64,000 nucleotides of DNA. Source: Watersipora subatra. Lineage: Eukaryota > Bryozoa > Gymnolaemata > Cheilostomatida > Watersiporidae. Position numbers and translations under genes: made by a program. Below, piece after piece: positions 40,101-43,100 of the stretch (positions are counted from its first letter, which is position 1; each line of letters begins with the position of its first letter). Below the pieces are notes generated by a model, which worked only from the letters and a program-made list of their open reading frames with translations, was not told the DNA's origin and made no database searches. The DNA is taken from assembly GCF_963576615.1 (NCBI RefSeq), contig NC_088708.1, positions 65,264,672-65,328,671 on the forward strand. Direction: 5' to 3'.

Positions 40101-43100
40101 TTGAATCATTATTATTATTATTGCTATTGAATCATTGTTATTATTATTGCTATTGAATCATTAACAGCCCAAAATATTGCTATTGAATCATTAACAGCCC
40201 AAAATATTGCTATTGAATCATTAACAGCCCAAAATATTGCTATTGAATCATTAACAGCCCGAAATATTGCTATTGAATCATTAACAGCCCAAAATATTGC
40301 TATTGAATCATCAACAGCCCAAAATATTGCTATTGAATCATTAACAGCCCAAAATATTGCTATTGAATCATTAACAGCCCGAAATATTGCTATTGAATCA
40401 TTAACAGCCCAAAATATTGCTATTGAATCATTAACAGCCCGAAATATTGCTATTGAATCATTAACAGCCCAAAATATTGCTATTGAATCATAAACAGCCC
40501 AAAATATTGCTATTGAATCATTAACAGCCCAAAATATTGCTATTGAATCATCAACAGCCCAAAATATTGCTATTGAATCATCAACAGCCCAAAATATTGC
40601 TATTGAATCATTAACAGCCCAAAATATTGCTATTGAATCATTAACAGCCCAAAATATTGCTATTGAATCATTAACAGCCCGAAATATTGCTATTGAATCA
40701 TTAACAGCCCGAAATATTGCTATTGAATCATTAACAGCCCAAAATATTGCTATTGAATCATTAACAGCCCGAAATATTGCTATTGAATCATTAACAGCCC
40801 AAAATATTGCTATTGAATCATTAACAGCCCAAAATATTGCTATTGAATCATTAACAGCCCAAAATATTGCTATTGAATCATTAACAGCCCGAAATATTGC
40901 TATTGAATCATTAACAGCCCAAAATATTGCTATTGAATCATTAACAGCCCAAAATATTGCTATTGAATCATCAACAGCCCAAAATATTGCTATTGAATCA
41001 TTAACAGCCCAAAATATTGCTATTGAATCATTAACAGCCCGAAATATTGCTATTGAATCATTAACAGCCCAAAATATTGCTATTGAATCATTAACAGCCC
41101 GAAATATTGCTATTGAATCATTAACAGCCCAAAATATTGCTATTGAATCATAAACAGCCCAAAATATTGCTATTGAATCATTAACAGCCCAAAATATTGC
41201 TATTGAATCATCAACAGCCCAAAATATTGCTATTGAATCATCAACAGCCCAAAATATTGCTATTGAATCATTAACAGCCCAAAATATTGCTATTGAATCA
41301 TTAACAGCCCAAAATATTGCTATTGAATCATTAACAGCCCGAAATATTGCTATTGAATCATTAACAGCCCGAAATATTGCTATTGAATCATTAACAGCCC
41401 AAAATATTGCTATTGAATCATTAACAGCCCGAAATATTGCTATTGAATCATTAACAGCCCAAAATATTGCTATTGAATCATTAACAGCCCAAAATATTGC
41501 AATTGAATCATTAACAGCCCAAAATATTGCTATTGAATCATTAACAGCCCAAAATATTGCTATTGAATCATTAACAGCCCAAAATATTGCTATTGAATCA
41601 TGAAAAATACTATATATCCTTTTTACATGCTTCGAGGCAGAAGTAAGCTGGTTATAATTGAAGATGAGTTAGCAATACAAAGTATTGGGAGTTATGAGAG
41701 TACAGCAGTAACTTGATGGATTCAGCAGACCTGGAGGTTTTGCAAGTGCCATCATTGATGGATGACACTGTTTATTGCCTGTCAAAATGTCATATTTCAT
41801 CAATCACATTGAATATTGTTTACCATGAAACCCTATGCTAGGGGCCTACATTCAAAAAGCATTTGATGTTAAAACTAGAGCATGGTTGAGAGACTAGCTT
41901 CAAAAAGCTGTCTCAGAGAGGCCTCTGTGTATCAGCAGATCACATACTGCTACTTTCAATGATGCCAAGTGTGAATACAATTAGAAACACACCTGGTACT
42001 CCTTACAATACTTTACATGAAGAAAACTAATTATTTGTATAAAGTCTATGTTTTGTATTGTGTCATGGAAGATATCAGGAAAACTTTTATAATTTTTATA
42101 TAACTTTCTTCGGTGGGTTTGTTGTGAGAAAGTTCTCATGATCCAACATGTGGGTGCTTCTGCAGGAAGACAATAAACAAATCTCTAATGATTATAGTGT
42201 CGACTTCGTTTAGCTATTTTAAGGAGAGCAAAATGGAGTCATGTACTGAATTTAAGGAGTGAGTGGAATATAATAAGGCAAGTTATGGCGAGAGTGAAAT
42301 ATAGTCATGTATTGAATTCTTATAAAGACATATTTCAGATCATTCAAGAAAGATATTTCTCCTAAGATACAAGTCTTATGTTCACTATGAAACACAGAGT
42401 AAGCTCATAACTGAAGCTCTAACTTATAAATGCTCGAAGACCTTACTAAAGAGAGTAAATGAACACTGACCATTGCTCCCTTGAATCCATCCACAGATCC
42501 CAAACAGTACATAAACCAACATTTTAACAAGATTTTATTGCGAGAAAAAATTTTTGTTCAATCACTAGTTTGAGCTTCTGCCCTATTGCCACCTGTCTGC
42601 ATCTGTCATCGCATCGAAATTATTATTCCACTAGTAACTAATTCTTAAAATTTAAATAGCTATATCGGTGCTTGTTTGACAACAGCCTCTGATTGGTTGA
42701 ATGTATTTTTGCAGCCAATGAAGCATAAAAATTGATTGTGAGTTTTGAGGCCAATACGCTCTGGGAGAATGTCGGATAGAACTTGCTGACTAATACAATG
42801 TTTTTAAGAGTAATAACAAATCACACCCGATACTTTCTAGCTAGCTGGAGCAAACATTATTACACATACCAATTAAAGTAGGTTACGACACAATCACGTA
42901 AAACTTGTCTGTCTGTTTATCCTGTAGATGGTTAAACTTTTTCCAATTCAAGCAAAAATTCAATCTCAAAAAGTGTGATGGTAAGAAATGGTAAACTAGT
43001 TGAGGTTTTCTCAATTAACTTTAACTTTAGTGAAAATAATTATCATAGACTGAGTGAATTTTGTTTTAAACCCATTCTCTTTCTATAGCTTCCTCTTTTT

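Follow-up and report, generated by a model that had tools for sequence, protein, structure and literature searches.

A receptor-like gene of Watersipora subatra (gene 1) contains, in its intron 7, a second copy of its own 5' end. Alignment with the region of the first exon, E1, shows that the copy comprises a CCAAT block, a leader, a signal-peptide exon and the start of intron 1. Judged by its sequence, the copied exon, E1' (42471..42522, minus strand), is real, old and coding-competent. The likeliest single reading, a tentative one hardly ahead of that of a relic, is that E1' serves as a second start. The window, the whole stretch of 64,000 nucleotides that was analysed, belongs to a contig of a 784-Mb assembly; positions are those of the window, and negative ones lie before its first nucleotide.

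Organization of gene 1

Gene 1 is encoded on the minus strand, with an Ig part followed by a PAN, transmembrane (TM) and tail part, and every internal exon of the model has AG/GT ends. The long form begins with E1 (60635..60686, read directly), followed by V1 (57483..57761), which is V-like by eye and according to the original prediction and has no Pfam match, V2 (55481..55576), which has a weak match to the Pfam V-set model (E 0.016), C2a (54984..55137, a domain name taken from the original prediction) and C2b (54086..54234). The two exons of Ig module 1 are M1a (53791..53969) and M1b (50479..50611), past which an AATAAA is found at 50278-50273. Then come M2a (38781..38956, with its AG at 38958-38957), which is the first exon that the two forms would have in common, M2b (37693..37831), M3a (36877..37055) and M3b (32871..33003). 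The Ig modules match general Ig models of Pfam (I-set, Ig_3), just below or below the cut-off.

The common 3' part (6945..16135, minus strand) consists of a PAN_1 domain exon which is above the Pfam cut-off (16135-15875), a second PAN-like exon without Pfam match (14914-14660), three further exons (13616-13113, 12789-12445 and 10169-9987), the TM exon (9237-9111) and two cytoplasmic exons (8107-8037 and 7126-6945). The least certain joins of the model are the donor at 12445 and the start at 10169. The last tail exon has several tyrosines, one of them in the motif VSYLEIV, which we take to be ITIM-like, and this tail suggests an inhibitory immune-type receptor. Past the gene's 3' end, an 18-bp minisatellite runs from 511 to 4639 (about 229 copies at 90% match).

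Self-comparison aligns the region around Ig module 1 with module 3 at 82% identity over 659 nt. Four intron blocks (47278..49418) are also found again, in the same order and on the same strand, at 24394..29410 (minus strand, 72-79% identity). Gene 1 thus reads as a unit A (E1, V, C2, M1 and intron), a unit B (E1', M2, M3 and intron) and a common PAN/TM/tail part, where E1', with its promoter region, leader and 1.5 minisatellite units, is on this alignment the 5' end of unit B. "Intron 7", where the original prediction had placed E1', does hold it, and is better described as the seam between two tandem units of what is apparently one gene. Relics of V or C2 exons within unit B were considered and dropped, as the searches gave no match there.

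A rival reading is that the two units are two genes: unit A (60.7 to about 50 kb) would end alone, perhaps by read-through of M1b, and E1' would be exon 1 of a second gene. The donor of M1b, GTAAAT in gene 1 and also in its tandem paralog gene 2, pairs with U1 less strongly than those of M2b and M3b, and the frame continued into the M1b intron stops after 19 codons. However, searches with the TM and tail peptides found nothing from 50 to 43 kb, inspection by eye of the listed frames of 40 aa or more revealed no such exon, splicing of M1b to M2a is allowed in all phases, and gene 2 has an open unit A, a broken unit B and then a single TM/tail set. We therefore consider two separate genes very unlikely. 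It is possible, from the sequence of the read-through region (50479-50273), that unit A also gives a short secreted form.

Between 33 and 16 kb, upstream of the PAN exons of gene 1, the start peptides of PAN-type genes gave only chance-level matches (E above 1). A scan of the same region for exons with an ATG and a hydrophobic stretch returned 38 candidates, 37 of which are in CA-rich repeats, the remaining one being at 23164. Both outcomes are consistent with a fusion of the Ig part to the PAN part within one gene and do not prove it.

The duplicated exon

The E1 and E1' regions are aligned collinearly by blastn over 354 nt (E 2e-22), a length that includes a shared minisatellite unit. Leaving this unit out, the match is 72.7% over 77 nt (42477-42552; E about 5e-5 in 264 kb), which corresponds to the end of the leader and 46 of the 52 exon bases. 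Chance similarity is ruled out by the collinear 354-nt match. The stretch which can be aligned to the promoter region, exon and intron-1 start of E1 spans 42212..42800 (minus strand; its upstream limit is approximate, and homology could not be extended past about 42.8 kb) and ends in about 1.5 units of a 66-bp intron-1 minisatellite. E1' receives 453.7 bits from a profile built from E1, the E1 of gene 2 and E1' itself.

Both exons are 52 nt long, start with ATG, are open, end in phase 1 and are followed by a GT donor. They differ at 16 of the 52 bases (4, 8 and 4 at codon positions 1, 2 and 3), and the hydrophobic core is kept, with a Kyte-Doolittle maximum over 9 residues of 2.74 in E1 and 2.68 in E1'. 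On all these points, including the figure of about 30 percent of bases changed and the duplication of a promoter region and a signal-peptide exon, the original prediction was borne out.

E1' joins M2a in frame at 38956. The exon sets translate without internal stop, with predicted splicing, into a long form of 1198 aa from E1 and a short form of 868 aa from E1'; the junction in frame with exon 8 was correctly anticipated, and the length of 895 aa proposed earlier is replaced by 868 aa. As in a signal peptide, the E1'-M2a peptide combines a hydrophobic core with small residues ahead of the predicted cleavage site. A cleavage-site matrix gives 5.25 for the site that follows ...GSNA and 4.89 for one located three residues before it, compared to 8.19 for E1-V1.

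Promoter region, leader and donor

The leader and CCAAT block of E1' occupy 42523..42696 (minus strand). A 14-mer, TCAACCAATCAGAG, is unchanged between the regions upstream of E1 and E1'. Its CCAAT starts at 60844 for E1 and at 42696 for E1' (42696-42692), 158 and 174 nt before the respective ATG, so that the claim of a CCAAT box kept at nearly the same distance holds. In the leader of E1', the start codon is preceded by three ATGs (42614, 42609 and 42602), each opening a short frame, and no upstream ATG is found in the leader of either the gene 1 or the gene 2 E1. The identity of the leaders is 52/92 between E1' and E1, compared to 84/93 between the E1s of gene 1 and gene 2.

The donor is GTGAGT in E1 and GTCAGT in E1': the G to C change at +3 removes a purine. 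With a U1 pairing value of -6.9, the E1' donor ranks in the top 2.4% of GTs and pairs more strongly than 5 of the 11 other donors of the model.

The paralog and the age of E1'

Gene 2 is a tandem paralog on the same strand, about 103 kb downstream (-42945 to -85269; about 65.18-65.22 Mb of the contig). It has E1 (at -42.9 kb), V, C2, M1, M2, TM and tail exons; its V, C2 and M1 exons are open, and its last tail exon is 94% identical to that of gene 1 at the DNA level. No match to the PAN-part peptides was found in gene 2 between the Ig part and the TM exon. Its M2b (-60389 to -60278) carries a 5-nt insertion, which shifts the frame, and a stop codon. The unit B Ig module of gene 2 thus seems dead, with the unit decaying there.

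The aligned E1 regions of gene 1 and gene 2 are identical at 481 of 540 positions, compared to 320/524 and 309/508 between E1' and each of them. Among the gap-free columns, E1' alone differs in 168 and sides with one E1 or the other in 20 and 18; all three differ in 8 and agree in 289. The two E1s are equidistant from E1', which shows, on this alignment, that E1 and E1' diverged before the separation of gene 1 and gene 2. E1 and E1' are more diverged (corrected 0.55-0.62) than the duplicated intron blocks (0.25-0.28), so that E1' may be older than the duplication of M1/M3 and their introns, or the intron blocks may have been homogenised. An assembly duplicate is ruled out, since the identity of 61-69% is far too low.

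Intron 7 of gene 2 can be aligned to that of gene 1 as far as 45381 and again from 42078 onwards, and nothing separates the two matches in gene 2. The segment which carries E1' (42080..45380, minus strand, by collinear comparison) is therefore missing from gene 2; because the match that starts at 42078 is a repeat, the missing stretch could also be 45380-40016. The simplest reading of this comparison is that gene 2 lost the segment.

A repeat of about 490 bp is present three times around E1', once inverted (43169..43652, minus strand) and twice direct (41593..42074, plus strand, and 40007-39522, in the same direction as the latter); these copies resemble one another at 83-90%. The only other occurrence of the repeat in the 264 kb searched is at the corresponding place of gene 2 (82%). 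Also within the E1' intron, a 30-bp minisatellite (48.6 copies, 40145-41601) lies in a minus-strand open frame of 514 codons. Two frames, 34150-36303 (plus strand) and 46870-45818 (minus strand), resemble reverse transcriptases of non-LTR retrotransposons; the second is within the stretch common to the intron 7 of gene 2.

These data bear on another rival reading, in which E1' is a piece of the 5' end of another paralog, inserted later into intron 7 (as an insert of 3.3 kb or longer, with the 490-bp repeats) and intact because it is young there. The segment is present in gene 1 and absent from gene 2, where the junction is simple, and the inverted repeats enclose a 1.1-kb core with E1'. On the other hand, the orientation and order of E1' are those expected from tandem duplication, and no close donor was found. 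A DNA search of the 784-Mb assembly with the 431-bp E1' region matched only E1' itself, a search with its 17-aa peptide likewise, and the same DNA search with E1 found itself and the E1 of gene 2 at 87% identity. The sensitivity of the DNA search is limited, as it missed E1 (about 67%) when started from E1'. A recent copy from elsewhere was set aside on these grounds, within that sensitivity; a donor that has been lost, is absent from the assembly or is more distant is possible, and we regard a late insertion as improbable overall. Nor was a third E1-like exon found in the 264 kb: the profile returned E1, E1', the E1 of gene 2, minisatellite units and chance-level matches, and a further 40 kb gave no match.

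Constraint or neutral decay

The neutral decay of a functional E1 was simulated with an indel/substitution ratio of 0.05-0.1. On a branch of 0.285 substitutions per site, which is a clock estimate from the measured distances, the length, ATG, frame and GT are kept in 2.6-6.8% of cases, and these features together with the hydrophobic core in 1.6-4.3%; as E1' was chosen for looking intact, these figures, and the conservation figures given below, overstate the evidence and need discounting. All features with the core are kept in 4.9-10.5% at 0.2 and in 0.7-2.3% at 0.35 substitutions per site. Over a wider range, the values go from 37% at 0.1 without indels down to 0.4% at 0.4 with indels. The argument that a random relic would lose at least one of these properties is thus in agreement with the simulations, which seldom keep them all.

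The alignment of E1' and E1 has no gap in the exon or in the 35 nt after the donor, 3 gaps in the leader and 4-5 in the intron (60599-60480). The identity of the exon (36/52) is nominally, and not significantly, higher than that of the leader and near intron (141/240, p = 0.11) or of the flank including the minisatellite stretch (198/309, p = 0.29). This minisatellite stretch (60479-60400, 57/69 identical) is better conserved than the exon and is the best conserved stretch near E1'. When the exon and the CCAAT block are taken together (58/82), the p value is 0.006 against the flanks (197/359) and 0.033 against the flanks with the minisatellite (254/428), for blocks which were picked after seeing the alignment.

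Twelve of the 16 exon changes were counted as nonsynonymous (pN 0.32, pS 0.39), in a test of low power restricted to paralogs. The test is weak because the E1 exon also evolves at the level of its flanks between gene 1 and gene 2 (6 of 52 bases different). The sequence comparison therefore gives no clear sign of constraint on E1' at the protein level.

The strongest rival reading is that E1' is a relic. It would mark where a duplicated unit devoid of V and C2 exons begins, would no longer act as a promoter and would have kept its ATG, frame and donor by luck, the gene being transcribed only from 60.7 kb. The missing segment in gene 2, the diverged leader with its upstream ATGs, the altered +3 of the donor, the lack of a clear substitution bias and the exon which alone does not stand out from its flanks all agree with a relic. 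The unchanged CCAAT 14-mer and the low survival of all features in the simulations at 0.285 and 0.2 argue against it. A relic is a serious possibility, second only to the use of E1' as a start.

A possible second start

If E1' does serve as a second start, it would be a usable promoter which is weak or tissue-restricted. An RNA initiated near 42.6 kb would have 42471 spliced to 38956 and would encode the 868-aa form, a membrane receptor which carries a signal peptide of its own and is devoid of V, C2 and Ig module 1. Transcripts from the outer promoter would encode the 1198-aa form and are predicted to skip E1', as first exons normally have no acceptor.

This proposal is supported by the duplicated 5' end, by the frame shared with exon 8 and by the rarity with which a neutral relic keeps all features. 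Also in its favour are the collinear duplication of M1/M3 and the intron blocks, the equal distance of E1' from both E1s, the lack of a closer copy in the DNA search of the assembly, the cleavage-site scores, the U1 pairing of the donor, the gapless exon and the conservation of exon and CCAAT block taken together. It is weakened by the three upstream ATGs, the diverged leader, the loss of the +3 purine, the lack of a clear substitution bias, the non-significant difference between the exon alone and its flanks, and gene 2. In gene 2, a paralog and the only "sister" at hand, the E1' segment is absent and the unit B Ig module is broken. Since gene 2 is devoid of the segment, a second start would be dispensable.

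Start exons in the neighbourhood

In the 304 kb read, PAN-type paralogs are found downstream of gene 1, each with its own signal-peptide first exon. These exons, at -1175, -35172, -95533 and -113475, have 61, 61, 55 and 61 nt, respectively, and all end in phase 1 with a GTGAGT donor. The starts at -1175 and -113475 are followed by all five PAN-part exons searched for. Only one such exon (-40651) was found after -35172 and none after -95533, so that these two starts may be orphans, or belong to genes which are too diverged to be detected; tblastx of the PAN neighbours is too noisy beyond the signal-peptide exons.

None of the three extra first exons of the 304 kb (E1' and those at -35.2 and -95.5 kb) has lost the ATG, the open frame or the GT donor, and one of the three carries an in-frame deletion of 6 nt. 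A broader reading is that the receptor cluster multiplies cassettes made of a promoter and a signal-peptide exon and keeps them alive, as a young Ig/PAN system, similar to sDscam or protocadherin (Pcdh) genes, in which cassettes are cumulative. We consider this unlikely; if it were true, inner starts would peel domains off the N terminus.

Relation to known tandem-cassette genes

The variable first exons of the protocadherin, UGT1 and GCNT2 clusters are large and mutually exclusive. These clusters are described as having tandem first exons with their own promoters, joined to common exons (PMC1885805, PMC3325998). In gene 1, the duplicated exon is a signal peptide of 17 codons, and the upstream unit also adds domains.

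The sDscam genes of chelicerates have a 5' cassette, with a promoter and first exons, which is tandemly duplicated ahead of common exons, and alternative promoters yield alternative N termini (PMC4835542). The same text reports RNA-seq data and reporter assays in which both cassettes of one gene had promoter activity, and 5' RACE is among its methods; the sDscam protein generally has one of many cassettes (PMC4835542). Compared to this account, the gene described here is also an Ig-superfamily receptor gene whose 5' unit is duplicated in tandem, in this case known from sequence alone. Unlike in sDscam as described there, there are only two units and the outer form would carry both, in a cumulative manner.

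The duplicated unit of gene 1 includes a promoter region and a first exon, and both first exons are predicted to join common exons in frame. The locus thus resembles sDscam first, and then the protocadherin/UGT1 type, in structural features, and if E1' is used it would function in the same way; we do not claim that it belongs to either. E1' is also similar to ordinary relics of partial duplications, as a duplicated piece with a diverged leader that a paralog does not have; it differs from them in that, at its divergence, the ATG, frame, donor and hydrophobic core seldom survive together in simulation.

If E1' is used, it would be a clear case in which a 5' tandem duplication gives a receptor gene two starts, one for the long form and one for a form trimmed of domains, and the locus would be an early step towards cassette clusters such as those of sDscam or protocadherins. 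Gene 2, which has no second start, offers a ready natural comparison for gene 1. If E1' is unused, it illustrates for how long the intact appearance of a start exon can persist.
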